Source: an uncultured Bacteroidota bacterium (GTDB lineage Bacteria > Bacteroidota > Bacteroidia > B-17B0 > Aurantibacillaceae). Taken from it: 37,740 nucleotides of DNA. The DNA lies in the NCBI GenBank assembly GCA_937868545.1, contig CALMMX010000056.1:1-37740 (forward strand), written 5' to 3'. The notes beneath the pieces were generated by a model, which was not told the origin of the DNA, made no database searches, and saw nothing but the letters and a program-made list of their open reading frames with translations. The position numbers and the translations under genes were made by a program. Shown here in pieces: positions 2,082 to 15,062 of the stretch. Each line of letters begins with the position of its first letter. Position 1 is the stretch's first letter.

Positions 2082-5000
2082 ATGGAAACTACACCATATC
2101 AATCAACACACAAAATTCGAATTGTAACAGCAGCAGCATTATTTGATGGACACGATGCCGCCATCAACATCATGCGTCGTATCATTCAATCAAGTGGAGC
2201 AGAAGTAATTCATTTAGGGCATGATAGAAGTGCACAAGAAGTTGTAAACTGTGCTATTCAAGAAGATGCAAACGCTATTGCAGTAACTAGCTACCAAGGC
2301 GGACATGTAGAATACTTTAAATACATGTACGATTTATTAAAAGAAAAGGGCTGTGAGCACATTAAATTATTTGGCGGTGGTGGCGGTGTAATTCTCCCAA
2401 CAGAAATTGAAGAATTACATAATTATGGTATTGCACGTATCTATTCTCCAGATGATGGACGTTCTTTAGGTTTACAAGGAATGATTAATGATTTACTTCG
2501 TCAATGTGATTATGCTACTGGTACTAATATTAAAAATGATGTGGCTAAAATTGCAGAGAGAGATTATAAATCAATTGCCCGTATTATTTCTGCTGCCGAA
2601 AATTTTAATGATGAAAATATTGGTTTATTAAATGAATTAAAAGCAAAAGCAGAAAAATCAGCAACACCTGTGTTAGGTATTACGGGTACAGGCGGAGCTG
2701 GAAAATCGAGTTTAGTAGATGAATTGGTTCGTCGTTTTTTAATTGATTTTAAAGACAAACAAATCGCTATCATTTCTGTTGACCCATCTAAACGTAAAAC
2801 AGGGGGTGCTTTATTAGGAGATCGTATTCGTATGAATGCAATTAAGAACGACCGCGTGTATATGCGTTCATTAGCTACTCGTCAAAGTAACTTAGCATTA
2901 AGTAAATACGTGCAAGATGCAGTTAACATTTGTAAAGCTGCTAATTTCGATTTAATCATTTTAGAAACTTCTGGTATTGGACAATCTGATACAGAAATTA
3001 TTGAACACTCTAACATGAGCTTGTACGTAATGACTCCAGAATACGGAGCAGCTACACAATTAGAGAAAATTGATATGTTAGATTTTGCTGACATTATTGC
3101 TTTAAACAAATTTGACAAACGTGGGGCATTAGATGCGATACGTGATGTAAAAAAACAATACAAACGAAACCACAACTTATGGGAAATTGCAGATGAAGAT
3201 ATTCCAGTATTTGGAACAATTGCTTCTCAATTTAATGACCCAGGTATGAATCGCTTATACAAAGCGGTAATGAATAAAATGGTTGAGAAAACAAGCAATA
3301 CAGCTTTAGCTTCTCAATTTCATATTACAGAAGAGATGAGTGAAAAAATTTACATTATTCCTCCTTCAAAAACACGTTATTTATCTGAGATTTCTGAAAA
3401 CAACCGTAATTACGATAAGAGAGCTAACGCACAAGCTGAAGTTGCTCAAAAATTATATGGCATTCAAAAAACCATTGAAACGATTACGGAATCTAAAATG
3501 GAGGACAAAGATCGTTTGATTAAAGGGTTACAAGAAGCATTTGAAAAAACAAAACTAGATTTAGATCCTCATCATTTATTGGTAATAGAAGGATGGGAAG
3601 CAAAAAAGAAATTATATAGTAGTGAGTTTTATGAATTTAAAGTGCGTGATAAAGTATTGAAAATTGAAACGCATTACGAATCTTTATCTCATTCAAAAAT
3701 CCCAAAAATTTCGTCACCAAAATATACATCGTGGGGAGATATTTTAAAATGGACCTTGCAAGAAAATTTCCCTGGAGATTTTCCTTACACTGCTGGTATC
3801 TATCCATTTAAACGCGAAGGTGAAGATCCAACTCGTATGTTTGCTGGAGAAGGTGGGCCAGAGAGAACTAACAAGCGTTTTCATTATGTAAGTAAAGGAT
3901 TACCGGCAGCACGTTTAAGTACAGCTTTTGATAGCGTGACGTTATATGGTAATGATCCTGATTACCGTCCAGATATTTATGGTAAAATTGGTAATAGCGG
4001 TGTGAGTATTTGTTGTTTAGATGATGCTAAGAAATTATATTCAGGCTTCAATTTAGCAGATCCTAAAACATCTGTGTCAATGACTATTAATGGCCCAGCA
4101 CCAACTATGGCGGCGTTTTTTATGAATGCAGCCATTGACCAACAGTGCGAAATTTACATTAAGGCAAATGGTTTAGAAAAAGAAGTAGAAGAAAAAATTG
4201 CAGCCATTTATAAAGCAAAAGGGACTGTTCGTCCAACCTACCAAGGCGAATTGCCAGAAGGCAATAATGGCCTAGGTTTAATGTTATTAGGCGTTACAGG
4301 AGACCAAGTATTACCTAAAGATGTTTACGAAAAAATTAAAGCAACCACTTTATCACAAGTACGAGGTACAGTACAAGCAGATATTTTAAAAGAAGACCAA
4401 GCACAAAACACATGTATTTTTAGTACAGAGTTTAGTTTACGTGTAATGGGAGATGTGCAACAATACTTCATCGATCAAAAAGTACGTAACTTTTATTCAG
4501 TTTCTATTTCTGGCTATCACATTGCTGAAGCAGGCGCTAATCCTATCTCCCAGCTTGCCTTCACTTTAGCAAATGGATTTACGTTTGTAGAATATTACTT
4601 AAGCCGTGGTATGCACATTGATGATTTTGCGCCAAACTTATCTTTCTTCTTTAGTAATGGCATTGATCCTGAGTACAGTGTTATAGGACGTGTAAGTCGC
4701 CGTATTTGGGCTAAAGCTATGAAATTGCGTTACGGTGGAAACGAACGTAGCCAAATGTTGAAATACCATATACAAACTTCTGGTCGTTCGTTACATGCGC
4801 AAGAAATTGATTTTAATGATATTCGTACAACGTTACAAGCCTTATATGCTATTTACGATAACTGTAATTCATTGCACACCAACGCATACGACGAAGCTAT
4901 AACAACACCAACAGAAGAATCGGTTCGTAGAGCAATGGCAATTCAATTAATTATTAATCGTGAATTAGGTTTAGCAAAAAATGAAAATCCATTACAAGGA

Positions 5001-5462
5001 TCTTTCATTATTGAAGAATTAACAGATTTAGTTGAAGAGGCAGTGTTAACTGAGTTCGACCGTATTTCTGAACGTGGTGGTGTATTAGGAGCAATGGAAA
5101 CCATGTATCAACGTGGACAAATACAAGAAGAAAGTTTATACTACGAAACATTAAAACATACGGGCGAATATCCAATTATTGGCGTAAATACTTTCTTATC
5201 AAGCAAAGGAAGTCCAACGGTGTTGCCACGTGAAGTAATTCGTTCTACAACCGAAGAAAAAGAATACCAAATTACTATGTTAGCTGAGTTGCATAAAACT
5301 CATGCTGATAAGCACAACGAAATGGTAAAACGCTTACAAAGCGCAGCAATTCATAACAAAAACATTTTTGCTGAATTAATGGATGCAGCTAAATTTATGA
5401 GTTTAGGTGAAGTAACAAAATGCTTATTTGAAGTTGGTGGGCAGTATAGAAGGAATATGTAA
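2082..5462 (+). CDS. icmF: Fused isobutyryl-CoA mutase (IcmF), B12-dependent
   Basis: A 1126-residue cytoplasmic enzyme that should interconvert isobutyryl-CoA and n-butyryl-CoA using adenosylcobalamin. Domain order is diagnostic: an N-terminal B12-binding domain (DGHD with the axial His at residue 24, then a GGGGG turn), a MeaB-like G-protein chaperone (P-loop GTGGAGKSS at 202-210, NKFD base-specificity motif at 342-345), and a C-terminal mutase barrel from about residue 560. Methylmalonyl-CoA mutase has a substrate-contacting Tyr and Arg. Here the aligned-looking positions read YPFKR (Phe 576) and QAQNT (Gln 775), as expected for the isobutyryl-CoA form. The length is normal for the fused family, and all three parts look intact. 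It is a stand-alone gene with a long leader and a 71-bp gap to the next gene. Confidence in the fused mutase is very high; substrate preference rests on my manual alignment. Confidence 0.96.
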
Positions 5463-6586: not shown

Positions 6587-8644
6587 TTGAACTCAAACTC
6601 TCACATTAGTACAAAATATTTTAAAACAAAACACTACCAATTATTTTTGGTAGTGTTTTTTAATATTATAGGTTGGAGTTTAAACGCACAAAACATAAAT
6701 TCTCTTCTTAAACAATACCAAGAAAAATCTTATGATGATAGCAGCAAATTAAACTTAGCCATAAAAATTAGTGATTACTATAAAACTAAAAATCCCGACT
6801 CTAGTTTTCTTTTTAATTTACAAGCTTATCATTTAGCAAATGCTAATAATTACAAAGAGCAAGAAATTAAATTGGGATTTAAACTATCTTATTATTATTT
6901 CAATTATGGTAACAATCAAAAAGCTTTAAACTATGCAATTAACAGTCTTAAATTAATTGAACAAACAAATGAAGTTAAAAACAGAATAAATATATACAAT
7001 CACATAGGGACTATTTATAGTTCTATGGAAAACCACACAAAATCCTATTATTATTTTTCAAAATTTTTAAACTTAGCTCGAAGCAATAAAGATACTACTT
7101 CAATTGTGGCTGGACTTAACAATACGGGAGCTACACTTACCTCACTTTACAATTATTCGGATGCGAAACAATATTTTATAGAAGCATTAACTATTGATTC
7201 AATCAGAAATGAAACAGAATATTTTGATTATTACTACAGTAACCTAGCTAATATTTGTTTTGAAAACAATGAAATAAATAATGCTGAATTATATTTTTTA
7301 AAAAGCAACCACTATAGCAAACTATTACAAGACACTAATAAAATTATTTTAAACTACATAGCCATCTCTGATTTTTATTTTGATTTACATAACAATGATT
7401 TAGGTTTAAAATATATAGATACAGCTTATACTTTTACGAAAATTAAAAGTGATGTTACTACTAAGATAGGGTTATACGAGCGCTTAGCAAATGCCTATAA
7501 AACAACTGGTGATTATACTAATGCCTATAACTTTCACATTAAACACACTTATTTAAAAGATAGTGTTTCTAATACAGAAAATCAGATTCGGCTAAACAAT
7601 ATAGCTAATGATTATACTATAGAACAAAAAGAATTTGAACTAAACAATAAAGCAAAAATTGAAAGTCAAAAACAAAGGTTAATAACTTGGTCAATTATAA
7701 TTATACTTTTAATTGTTGCTGCATTTACATTTTTATTATACAAACGCTTCAAATTAATAAGTAAACAAAAAATAGTTATAGAACAAAAAGAGCAAGAAAC
7801 ACAATTGCAAAATACTATAATTAAAAAACAAAAATTATTAGTCGAAGAAAAACATAAAGAGATTACTGATAGTATAAATTATGCCAAAAGAATTCAATTT
7901 GCTTTATTGCCAAACGAAAACACTTTGAAGAATCATTTCCAAAATCATTTTGTTTATTTCAATCCAAAGGATGTTGTTAGTGGAGATTTTTATGCACTTG
8001 CAAAGCTCAATGGCGCAAACAATCAAGAAAAGATTTTGCTTTGTGTAGCAGATAGCACAGGTCATGGTGTGCCAGGCTCTATTATGAGTATGCTAAATAT
8101 GAGTTGTTTAAATTCGGCCATTAATGCAGATAAACACACGCAACCTGCTGATATTTTAAACGCAACTCGAAGTAGGATTATTCATTACCTAGCTACAGAT
8201 GGAAGTGAAGATGGGGGCAAAGATGGTATGGATTGCAGTTTAATTAGCTTTGATTTTAATGAAAAAAAACTTATTTATTCGGCTGCAAATAATCCTATTT
8301 TAATAGTGAGGGCCTCAAAAGGAACTGAAAATCCTAGTTTAGAAAATTATCCTGCCGATAGAATGCCAGTTGGAAAACATCTTAAGGACAATATACCGTT
8401 TATTCAAAAAGAAATTGATTTAAATGAAGGTGATATGGTGTATATGTTTACGGACGGATATGCAGATCAATTTGGTGGTGAAAAAGGTAAAAAATTTAAA
8501 TACAAACAGCTTGAGGAATTACTTATTTCTATTTCTGATAAGCCAATGGACACACAAAAACAAATACTATCTCAAACTTTTGATAATTGGAAAGGTAATC
8601 TAGAACAAGTAGATGATGTTTGTTTAATTGGGGTAAGAATTTAA
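6587..8644 (+). CDS. TPR - transmembrane - SpoIIE/PP2C phosphatase
   Basis: A 685-residue signalling protein. It has a signal peptide (cleavage expected after SLNA, residue about 34), a TPR-rich sensor region (about 40-340) outside the cytoplasm, and one membrane helix (about 365-386, WSIIIILLIVAAFTFLLY). A coiled coil (about 390-430) ends in DSINYAKRIQ, and a cytoplasmic SpoIIE-type Ser/Thr phosphatase follows (about 450-685). Metal-ligand patches are all present: VVSGDFY, ADSTGHGVPG (Asp at about 489), DGMDCS and FTDGYADQFGG. In this family such phosphatases usually dephosphorylate anti-sigma-factor antagonists or other regulators; no partner is encoded nearby. No ATG exists upstream of the signal peptide, and an in-frame stop at 6578-6580 limits the options, so TTG at 6587 is the only sensible start. 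It is the first gene of a five-gene same-strand cluster. Confidence 0.88.
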   Translation: MNSNSHISTKYFKTKHYQLFLVVFFNIIGWSLNAQNINSLLKQYQEKSYDDSSKLNLAIKISDYYKTKNPDSSFLFNLQAYHLANANNYKEQEIKLGFKLSYYYFNYGNNQKALNYAINSLKLIEQTNEVKNRINIYNHIGTIYSSMENHTKSYYYFSKFLNLARSNKDTTSIVAGLNNTGATLTSLYNYSDAKQYFIEALTIDSIRNETEYFDYYYSNLANICFENNEINNAELYFLKSNHYSKLLQDTNKIILNYIAISDFYFDLHNNDLGLKYIDTAYTFTKIKSDVTTKIGLYERLANAYKTTGDYTNAYNFHIKHTYLKDSVSNTENQIRLNNIANDYTIEQKEFELNNKAKIESQKQRLITWSIIIILLIVAAFTFLLYKRFKLISKQKIVIEQKEQETQLQNTIIKKQKLLVEEKHKEITDSINYAKRIQFALLPNENTLKNHFQNHFVYFNPKDVVSGDFYALAKLNGANNQEKILLCVADSTGHGVPGSIMSMLNMSCLNSAINADKHTQPADILNATRSRIIHYLATDGSEDGGKDGMDCSLISFDFNEKKLIYSAANNPILIVRASKGTENPSLENYPADRMPVGKHLKDNIPFIQKEIDLNEGDMVYMFTDGYADQFGGEKGKKFKYKQLEELLISISDKPMDTQKQILSQTFDNWKGNLEQVDDVCLIGVRI
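6628..6661 (+). terminator. Terminator-like hairpin inside the next gene's signal-peptide codons
   Basis: AAAACACTACCAA (6628-6640) pairs perfectly with TTGGTAGTGTTTT (6647-6659) across a 6-nt loop. The descending arm runs into TTTTTT, the shape of an intrinsic terminator. It lies 78 bp downstream of the SRPBCC/GyrI stop, but also 41 bp inside the gene that starts at 6587, where it encodes the hydrophobic core of the signal peptide. It may therefore act as an attenuator of the downstream cluster rather than a plain terminator. Confidence 0.6.
8574..8644 (+). repeat. 71-bp 3'-end repeat, copy 1
   Basis: The last 71 bp of this phosphatase gene match 9645-9715, the end of the next gene, with a single difference (C at 8600, T at 9671). 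The encoded tail is TFDNWKGNLEQVDDVCLIGVRI less its ends. The identity stops exactly at the stop codons. Confidence 0.9.
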
Positions 8645-8656
8645 AAACTATTAATT

Positions 8657-9715
8657 ATGACAAAATTATTAAACCTCACAACTTTTCTTATCTTACTATT
8701 TTTACCAAGTTGTTTAGCTGCTCAGTTAGATTCAATAACAACTAATCCAAAATACACAAAACATTTAACTTGGCGCGATACTTTTTTTGGCAATGAAGAA
8801 ATGTATCAGGTTTGCTACCCTAAAGATCATCGCTCCATGTTTTATTCCATTATCGTGTTTTCTGTTACAACAGTTTTGTTTGGTATATTGATTATATACA
8901 TTAAAAATCATAGTGCTAAACGCCTAAAAGAAAAAAAAGAAATTATAGCTGAACAAAACAAAGATTTGATAGATAGTATAAATTATTCACAAAGAATACA
9001 ACAAGCTATTTTGCCAGACAATATTATTGAAAACGTTGTCCTAAAAACAGGATTTGTGTTATATAAACCAAAAAATATTGTAAGTGGTGACTTTTATTGG
9101 CTTCACAAGCGTGACGAATATTTATACTTTGCAGTGATAGACTGCACTGGACACGGCGTGCCTGGAGCATTACTAACTATGTTGGCACATAACGCAATTA
9201 ATAAAGCAGTCATTGAAAAAGAACTTATAGATCCAACTACAATTTTAGATAGCATGAATTTAGATGTAAAGACTGCTCTAAAACAAGATAAAGATAATCC
9301 GATACAAGACAGTATGGAGGTTGGGCTCGTTTGTTTAAATACAATTACAAACGAATTATTATTTGCTGGAGCTAATATATCACTTACATATATTCAAAAC
9401 AATGTAATGAAATTTGCTATTGCTGGTAAATGCTCTGTTGGCTCAGTGCAAGATAAAAGTGTTTCATTACCTAAAACTCATTCCATATCTCTAAATAAAG
9501 AAGATAGCTTTTATTTATATTCAGACGGTTTATCCGATCAATTTGGTGGACCAAAAGGTAAAAAATTCAAATACAAACAATTAGAAGATTTACTGTTGTC
9601 TAATTCACAAAAACCGCTTGATGTGCAAAAACAAATTATCAATAAAACTTTTGATAATTGGAAAGGTAATTTAGAACAAGTAGATGATGTTTGTTTAATT
9701 GGGGTAAGAATTTAA
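8657..9715 (+). CDS. Single-pass SpoIIE/PP2C phosphatase without sensor domain
   Basis: A 352-residue protein starting 12 bp after the previous stop. It has a signal peptide (hydrophobic LLNLTTFLILLFLPSCLAAQ; the LPSC is a poor lipobox), a short extracytoplasmic stub, a membrane helix (about 60-80), a short coiled coil ending DSINYSQRIQ (105-114), and the phosphatase domain to the end. The metal-binding patches VSGDFYW, DCTGHGVPG (Asp 162) and YSDGLSDQFGG are intact. The DGMD patch of its neighbours is altered to DSMEV, which may change activity. It lacks the TPR region of the flanking phosphatases, so it may work as a trimmed partner or take signals through another membrane protein. Its last 71 bp nearly duplicate the end of the preceding gene. 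Confidence 0.86.
   Translation: MTKLLNLTTFLILLFLPSCLAAQLDSITTNPKYTKHLTWRDTFFGNEEMYQVCYPKDHRSMFYSIIVFSVTTVLFGILIIYIKNHSAKRLKEKKEIIAEQNKDLIDSINYSQRIQQAILPDNIIENVVLKTGFVLYKPKNIVSGDFYWLHKRDEYLYFAVIDCTGHGVPGALLTMLAHNAINKAVIEKELIDPTTILDSMNLDVKTALKQDKDNPIQDSMEVGLVCLNTITNELLFAGANISLTYIQNNVMKFAIAGKCSVGSVQDKSVSLPKTHSISLNKEDSFYLYSDGLSDQFGGPKGKKFKYKQLEDLLLSNSQKPLDVQKQIINKTFDNWKGNLEQVDDVCLIGVRI
9645..9715 (+). repeat. 71-bp 3'-end repeat, copy 2
   Basis: Second copy of the 8574-8644 sequence with one substitution, ending at the stop codon. The corresponding tail of the third phosphatase (ending 15062) is similar in protein but clearly diverged in DNA. Confidence 0.9.
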
Positions 9716-9780: not shown

Positions 9781-11070
9781 ATGTCTGAAATAAACAAAGA
9801 CCAACAAATTGAAAGCCTAGAAGAAAAAGTATCGCATTTGAGTAGAATGCTTGTTAAATCGTTTGGATATGCAGATCAAGATCCGGATACTTTTTTACAA
9901 AATGCAAGAAGAACTACCGAAGCAATTTGTCGTTTTATTTATACAAAAGAACTTGGTGAACCTAAAAGCAAAATGATGCTTAATGATTATGGAAGAGAAC
10001 TCTTACATAAAAAATTAATTCCAGATAAAATAGGAATACTCATTGGTACCATTCAAACCTATGGAAACTATGCCGCACATGCTCAAGATGATTTAAGTGA
10101 AGCAACCCGCGAATGGATTGCTCCATGCCAAACTGCTTTAGCAAGTTTAACAAATTGGTTTTTTTTAGAATACTTAAAAGGACATGTACCTAACGAATTG
10201 GTAACTCCAGTGCAGAGTTATGCCGAAAGCAGCACAACAAAAAATTATTCGCAAACAATTGCACCAACTTCTAAAAAATCTTCGTTACCCAAAATTGTAA
10301 TTGCAGTATTAGCTCTATTAATTGTTGCTTTTGGAACCTATTATTTTGCAACAAAAAACACTACTAATAATTTAGAAGTAAAAGATGAAGTGAAAACAGC
10401 TAACGAAGATGTAGTTAAACAACAAGAGAATATTGTTTCGGATTTAAACGCTGTAACACCAAATGCCAATGCTAAGCGCATTGCAGTTTTATATTTTGAT
10501 AGTGGTTCTGATAATGCTGAATTAACAAGGCTTAAAAAAGGATTAGCAGATATGATCATTTCCGATTTATCAAAAATAAATATGCTTAATGTAATTGAGC
10601 GAGCTCGTTTAGAAGAAATTTTAAAAGAACAAAAATTAAATAATTCAAAAGAATTTGACCCTGCTACAGCCAGTAAAGTTGGTAAACTATTAGGCGTGCA
10701 ATACATTTTAACCGGTTCGTTTTTTGATTTAATGGGTAGCATGAGAATGGATGCAAGGATTATAGATGTAGAAACAGGAAAAATAATAAAAAGTGAAGGG
10801 ATAGATGGCGCAACAAATACATTTTTTGATTTAGAAAAAAAATTGGTTGTAAAAATTGCCAGTGGATTAAATGTAGAATTAGCAGATGATAAAAACACAA
10901 AGGTTAATTCTTTAACTTACGAAACATCATTAATGTACTCTGACGCACTTGATAAAATGGACAAAGGAGAAAAAGACAAAGCTATAGATTTGCTAAAAAA
11001 AGTTTTACAAAAAAATCCTGATTTTACACCTGCACAAAATGCTCTTAATAAATTAACTGCTAAAGTATAA
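9781..11070 (+). CDS. DUF4145/HEPN-like - TM - CsgG-like - TPR protein
   Basis: A 429-residue protein with no signal peptide. Residues about 10-140 are helical and resemble the DUF4145/HEPN-like region (NARRTTEAICRFIY, LIPDKIGILIGTIQTYGN, then AAHAQDD with the conserved-looking N and H). This part should be cytoplasmic. A linker leads to one membrane helix at about 170-190. Residues about 234-365 resemble the CsgG/FlgO-type fold (RIAVLYFDSGSDN, LSKINMLNVIERARLEEIL, YILTGSFFDL, MDARIIDVETGKI), placed outside the inner membrane. The C-terminus has one TPR-like repeat (about 378-425). The next gene begins on the last base of this stop codon, so the two are probably co-translated. Such a domain fusion suggests transmembrane signalling, but no biochemical role can be assigned. 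Confidence 0.8.
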   Translation: MSEINKDQQIESLEEKVSHLSRMLVKSFGYADQDPDTFLQNARRTTEAICRFIYTKELGEPKSKMMLNDYGRELLHKKLIPDKIGILIGTIQTYGNYAAHAQDDLSEATREWIAPCQTALASLTNWFFLEYLKGHVPNELVTPVQSYAESSTTKNYSQTIAPTSKKSSLPKIVIAVLALLIVAFGTYYFATKNTTNNLEVKDEVKTANEDVVKQQENIVSDLNAVTPNANAKRIAVLYFDSGSDNAELTRLKKGLADMIISDLSKINMLNVIERARLEEILKEQKLNNSKEFDPATASKVGKLLGVQYILTGSFFDLMGSMRMDARIIDVETGKIIKSEGIDGATNTFFDLEKKLVVKIASGLNVELADDKNTKVNSLTYETSLMYSDALDKMDKGEKDKAIDLLKKVLQKNPDFTPAQNALNKLTAKV

Positions 11071-13154
11071 TGAAATCTAAACTGTTTTTAATTGTTTGTT
11101 TGCTTTGGGCTTTTATTTCTCAAGCTAAAACAATTGCTATTTCATATTTTGATAATTCTTCGGGAGACGCGAAGTACAACGCCTTGTCAAAGGGTATATC
11201 AGATATGCTAATAACAGATTTATCAAAAGTAAAAGGTGTAACTATTGTTGAAAGAGAAAAACTAGAAAAATTATTGCAAGAAATTAAATTAGGGCAGTCT
11301 AAATATTTCGACCAAACAACTGCGGTAAAACTAGGAAAAGGCTTAGGTGCTCAAAATATTTTAACCGGTTCGTTTTATATTTTAGATAATATTATTCGAT
11401 TAGATGCCCGTTTAATAGATGTACAAACAGGAGGTGTAATTTTTGCTGAACAAGTTAGTGGCAATAAAAACAATTTTTTTTCCTTACATCAGCAACTTGC
11501 CAATTTACTAGCTAAAAGTATAAACATACCATATAGTCCAGATTTAAGTGGGCTCTACAAAACTAATGAACAAGTGTCTATAAACGAAGTTGTAAATTAC
11601 TCAAATGCTATTGAACTTCAGGATGTAGGTATGGATCTTGAAGCAAAATTGTTACTTGAAAAAACGGTTAAATCAAATCCAAAATTTCAATTTGCAAAAT
11701 ATAAATTAGATGAGATTAAAGATTTAATTAAAAAAATTGAAGCTGAACGTGAAAAATTAATTTTAGAAGAACTCAAAAATACTATTAATACCATTGATGC
11801 ATCTAACGAAAAATTTGGAATGCAACTTACAAATGTTTGGACAACTTTGGTTTCTTCCTATAAATTTAATCAATTACTTTCTTTTAATAATTCAATTAGG
11901 AAAATGAAAGTTGATGATAAAAAGAAAATTTATGGAGAAGCATCGCCCTATACACTTGGAGAAATGCTTTCCTTTTATGATTGCTATGCATTTGATGCTT
12001 TAAAAAAATACGATTTAGTAATTGATGAAGGTAAATCATTTATTACTAAATATCCTACAAGCATGTATTTTCAAAGTGTAAAAATGTATCTAGAAAAAGC
12101 AATTAAAGAAATAGAATGGCGAGAAAATGCTAAAAAAGGATTAGATAATAAGCTTGCGGCAGAATCACTGGATGCATATGTTAATTACTTAAATAATTTA
12201 GAATGGAAAACGAACCTTCAATTTGTAAACACTAAAGAATATCAAAATTATGCTCAAATTTATAAAACTCAAGTTTTAAATACAAACAAAGAAACTATTG
12301 CTACATGGGATGAAAGTAGCAAGTTTAATGAGTTTACTAATTTTTTTGAAATTGCTCAAAACTATAACGACATTAAAATGATGGAGGATATCGTTTCAAC
12401 TTCCAAAAATTTATTTACCGATCCCGACGACCAAGAAAAAGTTTATTCATTAGAAAACAAACTAGAAGATTTTAAAACAAAAACCATTGAAAATGAAACT
12501 AAAATAAAAGAACTAGAATCTATAGCAAAAAAAGGTTCAAAGCATGAAATGGAAAATGTAATACATTGGTTATTTAGCAATGAACAATACAATAGACCTG
12601 ATTTGCTTTTAGAGATTTGTGATAAATACTTGAAAACAGGTAAACCTACCACCGAAAAAGAAGTTGATGAAAACCTTCATGCTTGGGATGGATTTATTAT
12701 GTATACTGGCAAATTAAAAAATATTGAAGACGCTAACAAAGCCTTTGAAAACTTAAAAAGCAAAGCCGATGATTATAAAGCTTTTCAAAAAGATTATGAT
12801 AAAAAAGTAAGAGAAATTAATAAAGATTTCAGAAGCCTGCAAAATGACTATACGAGTTATTTAAAGAATTTAAAACACAAAGATCCAATGTGCAATGTGC
12901 TAGAAAATTATGCATCAACGTACAACGAAAATCATCAATATATAGACGAAGTTTATACTCGGAAACAAATTTTAGAATTATATAAATTAGATGATGACAA
13001 AAAATCGTTACAACTATTTTTATTAATGATGAGTTATTACAACCTAGGAAACTTTGATAATGTAAGAAAAACGGCCACACTTTATAACGAATTATATCCA
13101 ACTGGTTCTTATGCTGAATCCGTAAAATCTATTGTTGATTTTTTACCAAAATAA
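11070..13154 (+). CDS. Exported CsgG-like protein with long helical C-terminus
   Basis: A 694-residue protein with a signal peptide (KLFLIVCLLWAFISQAK). A CsgG-like domain at about 20-160 closely parallels that of the preceding gene (IAISYFDNSSGD, DLSKVKGVTIVEREKLEKLL, NILTGSFYILDNIIRLDARLIDV less its ends). The remaining 530 residues are largely charged helices with TPR-like and coiled-coil character (for example 215-240 and 440-480). There is no lipobox, so it should be soluble in the periplasm or surface-associated rather than a classical CsgG pore lipoprotein. It shares the A of TAATG with the upstream stop, and the next gene starts 3 bp after its own stop. The likely role is partner of the upstream membrane protein; function unknown. 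Confidence 0.8.
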   Translation: MKSKLFLIVCLLWAFISQAKTIAISYFDNSSGDAKYNALSKGISDMLITDLSKVKGVTIVEREKLEKLLQEIKLGQSKYFDQTTAVKLGKGLGAQNILTGSFYILDNIIRLDARLIDVQTGGVIFAEQVSGNKNNFFSLHQQLANLLAKSINIPYSPDLSGLYKTNEQVSINEVVNYSNAIELQDVGMDLEAKLLLEKTVKSNPKFQFAKYKLDEIKDLIKKIEAEREKLILEELKNTINTIDASNEKFGMQLTNVWTTLVSSYKFNQLLSFNNSIRKMKVDDKKKIYGEASPYTLGEMLSFYDCYAFDALKKYDLVIDEGKSFITKYPTSMYFQSVKMYLEKAIKEIEWRENAKKGLDNKLAAESLDAYVNYLNNLEWKTNLQFVNTKEYQNYAQIYKTQVLNTNKETIATWDESSKFNEFTNFFEIAQNYNDIKMMEDIVSTSKNLFTDPDDQEKVYSLENKLEDFKTKTIENETKIKELESIAKKGSKHEMENVIHWLFSNEQYNRPDLLLEICDKYLKTGKPTTEKEVDENLHAWDGFIMYTGKLKNIEDANKAFENLKSKADDYKAFQKDYDKKVREINKDFRSLQNDYTSYLKNLKHKDPMCNVLENYASTYNENHQYIDEVYTRKQILELYKLDDDKKSLQLFLLMMSYYNLGNFDNVRKTATLYNELYPTGSYAESVKSIVDFLPK

Positions 13155-13157
13155 TTT

Positions 13158-15062
13158 ATGGACACTAGTACTCATAACCATTCATTAAACACACAAAACA
13201 GTAAAGCATGGAGCCTACGTTATTCTGATTCCTCAACAGCTCTAAAAATTGCCGAAGAAGTTAAAAACGCAGCTATTGAAACCAATTTGTTAGAATATCA
13301 TTTTGCGCAATTAACTATAGCGCAATTAATTTTTTGGAAATCAAGTTCAAGCGAACAATTTATTACAGTTTCAGAAGCATTACATTTTTTTACAACAGAA
13401 AATAATGCCTTAGGAATATCAAGGGCTAATTTAATAAGTGCATCCATGCACGACCAATTTGGACAATATGAAAAAGCAATGGCTCATGCTTTAAACGCTG
13501 TAAAAACAGGCGAATTAGCAGGGGATGAATTAAATAAATCTGATTGTTACACATTATTAGGCCAAGTTTATTCACGCATTAATGATTACCAAAAGGCAAT
13601 TTTAAATTTAGAAAAAGGGTTAGTAATTCGTAACCTATTAAATGATAATAAAGCTTCTGCATCTTCTTTAAATTTAATTGCAAGAAACTATGTATTAAGC
13701 AAAAAATATGAAGAAGCTTTTTCGTTCTATAATCAAAGCCTTGAACTGAGAGAGAAAACCAATGATGTTGATGGTATTCCTTGGACCTATTTGGGATTAG
13801 CCAGTTTGTTTCTAGAAAAAAAAGAGTTTCACAAATCATTAGAATATTATAAAAAAGCCGAAAGTTCTAATTTAAAAAGCGAAAAACGTTTTGAATTAGT
13901 TTGTTTAATAGGAATTAGTAAAGTTCTTCTGTTTTTAAGTGAGTATAATAACGCCATAGCTTGTTTAACCGAAGCACTGTTAATTGCAGAAACTCTTCAC
14001 ATAGTTTCACTAAAAAGCGAGGCGCATGAATTACTATCTGAATGTTATGAAAAAACTAATGATTTATCAAAATCGCTTTTTCATTTTAAACAATATAATT
14101 TACTTCGCCAAGAAATATTAAGTAATGATAAGGTAAACACATTAAAAAATCAGCAAATTGCTTTTTCGGTTGAACACGCTGAAAAGGAAGCAGAAATTAA
14201 TCGCCTTAAAAATGTAGAGTTAAAAAATGCATTTGACAAAATAGAACTACAACATCATGAACTAGAAGAAAAAAATAAAGAAATTACAGATAGTATCAAT
14301 TATGCCAAACGTATTCAGTCATCATACATGGCAAGCGAAAACGAATTAAGTAATTATTTATCGGACTATTTTGTAATTTTTAAACCCAAAGATATTGTTA
14401 GTGGTGATTTTTATTGGGCAAATTACCACAATGACAGTTTCTATTTATGCACGGCTGATAGCACGGGTCATGGTATTCCTGGTGCTTTTATGAGTTTGCT
14501 AAACATTTCACTTTTAAACGAGGCTTTGTTTAGCAGAAATTTTCATAATCCAAGCGACATATTAAATTTTGTTCGAAAAATACTCATTCAAGGATTAAAA
14601 TCTGATGACTGTGGTCAAGGAGGAAAAGATGGAATGGATTGTAGTTTAATTAGATTTGATTTTACTAAAAACATATTGAGCTATTCTGCAGCAAATAATC
14701 CAATATGGATTTTAAGGAAAACAAGTGTTGAAGAACTCAATACTCATGATTACGAATTAATAGAACTTAAGCCAGATAAAATGCCTGTTGGGAAACATGA
14801 TAAACAAGATGTATCTTTCTCTCAACATGAGTTTAAATTACAAAAAGGCGATAGAGTTTATACAATTACCGATGGATTTGCCGACCAATTTGGAGGACCA
14901 AATGGCAAAAAATTTATGAGTAAATACTTAAAAGAGTTACTCCAAAATAATACCCATTTACCAATGCTAGAGCAAAAACAAATTGTAGATACTGCTTTTG
15001 AAAAATGGAAAGGCAACTTAGAGCAAGTAGATGATGTGTGTGTAATTGGATTGGCGATTTAA
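13158..15062 (+). CDS. Cytosolic TPR - SpoIIE/PP2C phosphatase
   Basis: A 634-residue soluble protein: no signal peptide and no membrane helix. Residues about 15-325 are TPR repeats (for example GQVYSRINDYQKAILNLEKG and YLGLASLFLEKKEFHKSLEY). A coiled coil (about 335-380) ends in the shared DSINYAKRIQ, and the SpoIIE-type phosphatase fills about 390-634. Metal-ligand patches are present: VSGDFYW, ADSTGHGIPG (Asp 434), DGMDCS and ITDGFADQFGG. It starts 3 bp after the CsgG-like gene and is the last of the cluster. With the first phosphatase it forms an inside/outside pair of TPR-regulated phosphatases. The C-terminus WKGNLEQVDDVCVIG matches its two paralogues. Confidence 0.88.
   Translation: MDTSTHNHSLNTQNSKAWSLRYSDSSTALKIAEEVKNAAIETNLLEYHFAQLTIAQLIFWKSSSSEQFITVSEALHFFTTENNALGISRANLISASMHDQFGQYEKAMAHALNAVKTGELAGDELNKSDCYTLLGQVYSRINDYQKAILNLEKGLVIRNLLNDNKASASSLNLIARNYVLSKKYEEAFSFYNQSLELREKTNDVDGIPWTYLGLASLFLEKKEFHKSLEYYKKAESSNLKSEKRFELVCLIGISKVLLFLSEYNNAIACLTEALLIAETLHIVSLKSEAHELLSECYEKTNDLSKSLFHFKQYNLLRQEILSNDKVNTLKNQQIAFSVEHAEKEAEINRLKNVELKNAFDKIELQHHELEEKNKEITDSINYAKRIQSSYMASENELSNYLSDYFVIFKPKDIVSGDFYWANYHNDSFYLCTADSTGHGIPGAFMSLLNISLLNEALFSRNFHNPSDILNFVRKILIQGLKSDDCGQGGKDGMDCSLIRFDFTKNILSYSAANNPIWILRKTSVEELNTHDYELIELKPDKMPVGKHDKQDVSFSQHEFKLQKGDRVYTITDGFADQFGGPNGKKFMSKYLKELLQNNTHLPMLEQKQIVDTAFEKWKGNLEQVDDVCVIGLAI

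Follow-up and report, generated by a model that had tools for sequence, protein, structure and literature searches.

The gene at the centre of this analysis lies in a 37,740-nucleotide stretch of DNA from an uncultured Bacteroidota bacterium (the window) and encodes a 429-aa protein in which a DUF4145 domain with a predicted HEPN fold, a single membrane helix and a CsgG/LpoB-like domain are joined on one chain. It is the first gene of a conserved three-gene block that continues with a second, paralogous CsgG-like protein (CsgG694) and a phosphatase of the SpoIIE type. The DUF4145 domain lacks the arginine of the HEPN RNase motif, and our preferred, still tentative, reading is that the protein may be a one-pass inner-membrane receptor whose pseudo-HEPN domain would relay a periplasmic signal to the SpoIIE phosphatase. 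The features of the block, in window coordinates, are as follows.

9781..11070, + strand: DUF4145-TM-CsgG-like-TPR-like protein, 429 aa (ATG-start ORF, Pfam)
9805..10212, + strand: HEPN-fold domain, residues 9-144, predicted cytosolic (Pfam, profile-profile comparison, AlphaFold, structure searches)
10054..10080, + strand: QTYGNYAAH motif, residues 92-100, with conserved Asn and His and without the motif Arg
10288..10356, + strand: membrane helix, residues ~170-192, positive charge on its N-side
10471..10875, + strand: CsgG/LpoB-like domain, residues 231-365, predicted periplasmic (Pfam)
10918..11055, + strand: TPR-like helical hairpin, residues 380-425 (Pfam, below cut-off)
11070..13154, + strand: CsgG694, paralogous CsgG-like protein with putative signal peptide and long helical tail, 694 aa
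13158..15062, + strand: TPR-coiled-coil-SpoIIE (PP2C-type) phosphatase, 634 aa, no signal peptide by eye

Domain architecture and predicted fold

A Pfam scan of the 429-aa protein placed DUF4145 (PF13643) on residues 31-112 at 23.5 bits, just above the cut-off of 23.1, and in the whole-genome search the match scored 22.3 bits, under the cut-off, so that the call is borderline by single sequence. The CsgG model (PF03783) scored 58 bits on residues 231-313 and the LpoB model (PF13036) 23.8 bits on residues 255-335, over its cut-off of 22.3. Every TPR model on residues 393-415 stayed below threshold (the best, TPR_1, with 15.2 of 27.8 bits); we therefore describe this part, with reserve, as one helical hairpin and reject a multi-repeat TPR domain. 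Residues 11-224 gave a weak match to a type I restriction endonuclease model (27.5 bits, cut-off 729). As separate records show the same architecture in 11 full-length genes, we rejected a chance fusion or an assembly error. The fusion of DUF4145, membrane helix, CsgG-like fold and TPR that the preliminary description had proposed thus stands for its first three parts, and the TPR part is sub-threshold.

The relationship to DUF4145 becomes clear when profiles are compared. A domain profile built on eight orthologues plus one paralogue was compared by hhalign with a profile representing 18 DUF4145 domains of other Bacteroidota; the alignment spans 103 columns with a probability of 95.3% and an E-value of 2e-8, and by this profile relationship the domain belongs to DUF4145. 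An AlphaFold model of residues 9-144, made from 12 alignment rows, is all helical (pLDDT 79.3, pTM 0.79). When this model was compared with the PDB by Foldseek, no E-value fell below 0.001 (values of 0.07-0.5), and the first 26 rows were nearly all HEPN-type chains (Csm6, MNT-HEPN toxins, HEPN proteins and the sacsin HEPN domain), many of them with a probability of 0.94-1.00. VIA-align, in which Z is inflated for helical bundles, ranked the HEPN protein 2hsb first (Z 13.8, rmsd 2.4, 121 residues); the next 30 rows are almost all HEPN or related nucleotidyltransferase helical domains, some of them unlabelled chains that we presume to be HEPN, and clearly unrelated bundles start at about Z 8.8. 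The HEPN four-helix fold of residues 9-144 is therefore well supported by prediction, which bears out the HEPN/DUF4145 identity first proposed for the N-terminus. The AlphaFold model of the full-length protein is poor (pLDDT 52), and for this reason the fold of the CsgG region rests on sequence profiles.

Searches of PDB sequences with the 429-aa protein and with profile A1 returned chance-level rows only. With the DUF4145 set A3 as query, by contrast, HEPN toxins and a DUF4145 protein of known structure were matched. One entry that this profile reaches, with an E-value of 4.6e-14, is PDB 9y9c, a solved assembly in which 24 chains are a DUF4145 protein.

Membrane topology and selection

All 11 full-length orthologues carry a single hydrophobic stretch near residue 170, with no second hydrophobic window, and in all 11 K/R exceed D/E in the 15 residues preceding it. 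The sequence of the stretch is only ~30% identical between pairs, and its position is kept nonetheless. Applying the positive-inside rule to this charge bias places the DUF4145 domain in the cytosol and the CsgG-like domain in the periplasm, so that the predicted arrangement agrees with the one first put forward for this gene.

Conservation along the protein is highest in the DUF4145 part, with a mean pairwise identity of 88.6% and 75/105 positions invariant, compared with 82.9% and 79/135 positions for the CsgG part. Over residues 31-135 the orthologues share 78-96% amino-acid identity with the window protein and only 48-59% of third codon positions, which indicates that the conservation reflects constraint and not recency; the DUF4145 part is under strong purifying selection. 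An antisense ORF of 185 aa (window 10341-10898, - strand) overlaps the CsgG region, and a similar frame is open in 13/17 compared sources; this frame probably arises simply from the codon usage of the conserved sense gene.

The protein shares with the CsgG, LpoB and FlgO-type domains (PF03783, PF13036, PF17680) above-cut-off matches to the first two, but it differs in covering only CsgG profile positions 9-97 of 210 and in being a one-pass membrane carrier. The CsgG curli secretion pore has an N-terminal lipoprotein signal; here DUF4145 occupies the N-terminus, and the only hydrophobic stretch lies at residues ~170-192. A working curli pore was rejected on account of the partial profile match. 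CadC-type one-component regulators combine a cytosolic output, a transmembrane segment and periplasmic TPR/TolB-like domains, and the 429-aa protein is alike in general layout, although its output would be a pseudo-HEPN domain and not a DNA-binding or cyclase domain.

A conserved three-gene block

The orthologue set comprises 11 loci in MAG records of Bacteroidota; L003, L004 and L005 duplicate the genomes of L029, L030 and L032 and do not enter the counts separately. A CsgG694 orthologue lies directly downstream in 11/11 contigs that continue, window included (the copy in L029 is split into two ORFs), and the TPR-SpoIIE phosphatase is the third gene in 9/9 contigs that reach that far. The three-gene order is also kept in G001 on contig C335. 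The outer flanks are common mainly to close relatives and mostly differ between genera. The genome of the window holds just two CsgG matches, the 429-aa protein and CsgG694.

The phosphatase matches the SpoIIE profile with 61.5 bits against a cut-off of 25 and carries SGDF, DSTGHG and TDGFADQFGG, which we take to be the Asp-bearing motifs of SpoIIE/PP2C enzymes. Proximity is weaker evidence here than it would be elsewhere, because SpoIIE genes abound in this genome, with 38 matches, and we therefore compared the module copies with the other SpoIIE proteins. With the Flavobacteriales module phosphatase of L027 as query, only 39.6% identical to that of the window, the module copy ranks first in 5/5 genomes, scoring 429-519 bits against 292 bits or less for the next protein of the same genome, among 32-78 matches per genome. 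With the window phosphatase as query, the five module genomes score 610-732 bits and 27 others 415 bits or less, so that matches above 600 bits occur in 5/32 genomes, exactly those with the module. A related phosphatase can also exist alone, which tempers the linkage claim: G023 has no DUF4145 gene, yet it encodes a 41% identical relative (415 bits) without CsgG neighbours.

The 38 SpoIIE matches of the 3.85 Mb genome (G000) include window 6587-8644, 8657-9715 and 13158-15062. They form part of a large expansion of TPR/coiled-coil SpoIIE phosphatases with a common 'KEITDSINYAKRIQ'-like linker; in each relative, one such phosphatase used as query finds 32-78 matches.

The DUF4145 form is rare and patchy, occurring in 4/20 genomes of the genus, own included. 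A single-sequence search of the phylum with the N-terminal domain found the own genome only (1/395). The domain profile matched 4/395 genomes, own included, and the matches in the others lie in reading frames that, at 1080-1140 aa, are much too long to be the 429-aa gene. No match to the N-terminal domain was found in plasmids and phages, and of the 68 stretches that profile A1 gave in viral contigs none was confirmed. Beside the window copy no defence genes were recognised, and PADLOC gave domain-level matches only and no named defence system; as the neighbours are ordinary metabolic and polysaccharide genes, a mobile or defence-island gene was rejected. One neighbouring gene, at window 2082-5462, encodes a 1126-aa protein that joins a B12-binding domain to MeaB GTPase and methylmalonyl-CoA mutase domains and resembles fused acyl-CoA mutases.

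These data bear on an alternative in which the DUF4145 domain would be a cytosolic RNA- or nucleotide-binding sensor that, when bound to its ligand, signals outward to an envelope function via the CsgG/LpoB-like domain. Ligand binding is a proposed role of inactive HEPN domains, and the above-cut-off match to LpoB, a peptidoglycan-synthase activator family, agrees with such a role, as do the weak type I restriction match and the finding that the best profile matches outside the own genome are the 1080-1140 aa frames. By itself this alternative leaves unexplained why a cytosolic SpoIIE phosphatase is constantly linked to the gene, and we consider the alternative unlikely.

Among the open PMC papers that our searches found, none names a DUF4145-CsgG or HEPN-CsgG fusion in its title or abstract. 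The table excerpt of the 2013 HEPN survey (PMC3710099) includes TM among the DUF4145 fusions and has no CsgG, so that DUF4145 with a membrane segment is already known from it and the CsgG fusion appears as a new variation. The conserved three-gene block is newly observed here, as is a caspase-for-DUF4145 alternative on the same CsgG-like pair.

The missing arginine

According to section 6 of the 2013 survey, the HEPN RNase motif is Rx4-6H, in which the Arg is followed by a polar residue, and an Ex3[KR] element is often present as well; the Arg is necessary in the KEN domain and in PrrC, and some HEPN families that keep the His without the Arg may use other basic residues (PMC3710099). The motif of the 429-aa protein reads Q92-T-Y-G95-N96-Y-A-A-H100, and Gln92, Gly95, Asn96 and His100 are invariant in 12/12 orthologue rows (11 distinct). 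The conservation of the Asn and the His, proposed from the single sequence, is thereby confirmed. Their reading as part of an RNase active site in the YGN...AAH patch is not supported by the comparison, because the Arg position of Rx4H is occupied by Gly95 and the invariant Gln92 stands where 21/22 readable Bacteroidota DUF4145 relatives have a basic residue (Arg in 18, Lys in 3); the sole exception, L037, has neither a basic residue nor the Asn. This count covers the 23 DUF4145 matches outside the own genome except L057, which is cut before the motif; 18 were aligned, and L043, L044 and L052 were read separately, all with Arg. The strict Rx4H position is Gly in most of these relatives too and Arg in 3 of the 18 aligned. 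The protein thus resembles the DUF4145/HEPN superfamily in profile, predicted fold and the G-N-x-x-x-H core of the motif, but differs in having Gln for the motif Arg and in being membrane-anchored beside a CsgG-like domain.

Since the family of the window lacks Arg at either position, a pseudo-enzyme is expected, and RNase activity of the DUF4145 domain is doubtful from its motif. An active membrane-tethered HEPN RNase, in which an envelope signal triggers RNA cleavage with His100 and Asn96 as catalytic residues, would need R43 or R/K51 to replace the motif Arg. R43 is conserved in 11/11 orthologues, as are E47 and R/K51, which fit Ex3[KR], and other Arg-less families that keep the His may offer a precedent; set against the absence of Arg from both positions and its necessity in KEN and PrrC, these features leave the alternative improbable.

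A distant paralogue in the same genus (L033:6495-8671, G003; 17.6 bits) has Arg at the Rx4H position, in the motif WRNLSAH. It is a DUF4145-TM protein with a different C-terminal part, located after a regulator-like gene and before one that looks like a recombinase, with type I restriction genes nearby (neighbours named by eye).

A caspase-bearing form of the CsgG-like pair

A search with CsgG694 among 295 genomes of the class gave a match in 12, own included. The DUF4145 form occurs in families f1 and f21, and families f16 and f24 carry a caspase form, in which the first gene has a putative signal peptide, the CsgG-TPR part and a C-terminal caspase, without DUF4145 and the membrane helix. The CsgG-TPR part is 52-56% identical between the two forms. 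Peptidase_C14 was matched in L034 (74.9 bits) and L087 (68.6 bits); L085, L086 and L089 run on into the same caspase region by eye, and L088 is cut at the caspase start. No C14 match was found in 6/6 DUF4145-form genomes. A CsgG694 orthologue adjoins the caspase-form gene in 4/6 contigs (L034, L085, L086 and L087); in G537 the two genes are on separate contigs, and in G616 no partner gene turned up. The caspase-form pair has no linked SpoIIE gene.

In a midpoint-rooted tree, from which the first gene of L025 and L026 and the second gene of L086 were left out, first and second genes are split with full support, the DUF4145 form is one group (98/94), and the caspase form lies beside it (83/72). 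This pattern suggests that the CsgG-like genes were duplicated before the outputs were swapped. Two adjacent CsgG-like genes in G697 (L113:4037-7101), the first with an N-terminal membrane helix and the second with numerous short repeats behind it, as judged by eye, are possibly another form of the pair.

The swap of a caspase for DUF4145 on the same pair, together with the patchy occurrence in the genus and the frequency of HEPN domains in conflict systems (PMC3710099), could point to a defence or cell-death unit, in which an attack on the envelope would be sensed by the CsgG-like pair and answered through an effector that differs by lineage, but the lack of recognised defence genes beside the window copy, the purely domain-level PADLOC matches, the empty plasmid and phage searches and the missing effector Arg make this improbable as well.

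Proposed mechanism and implications

In the receptor reading that we tentatively prefer, the CsgG/LpoB-like domain outside the inner membrane would pair, probably, with secreted CsgG694 and read some envelope state. Inside the cell, the Arg-less pseudo-HEPN domain would act as a binding module and not as an RNase, controlling the phosphatase encoded two genes downstream. The signal would pass to the CsgG pair, through the membrane helix to the pseudo-HEPN domain, and on via the TPR part to the phosphatase, a chain of which we infer every step. The relay to the phosphatase is proposed because the TPR-SpoIIE phosphatase is the only cytosolic partner with a fixed linkage. The preliminary description had suggested that an envelope signal might control an RNase-like or a scaffold activity, and of these the scaffold is the better supported, through the linked phosphatase.

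Because the part fused to the duplicated CsgG/LpoB-like pair differs between lineages, the pair suggests a sensor with a replaceable output. It is possible, though we regard this wider claim as rather unlikely, that in some Bacteroidota the pair is a general periplasmic receptor with exchangeable outputs, either a secreted caspase or a membrane-anchored pseudo-HEPN domain with a dedicated phosphatase, depending on the family. The two forms offer a clean natural comparison of the same probable sensor with different outputs. HEPN domains have mostly been studied as RNA-cutting toxins and defence enzymes, and here one is probably a non-catalytic part of a membrane protein, as judged from its motif and model. 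One SpoIIE phosphatase is singled out from the dozens in each genome, and its upstream input can be guessed and tested. If the proposal is true, the CsgG-like pair with exchangeable outputs would amount to a new class of system for envelope signalling or cell death.
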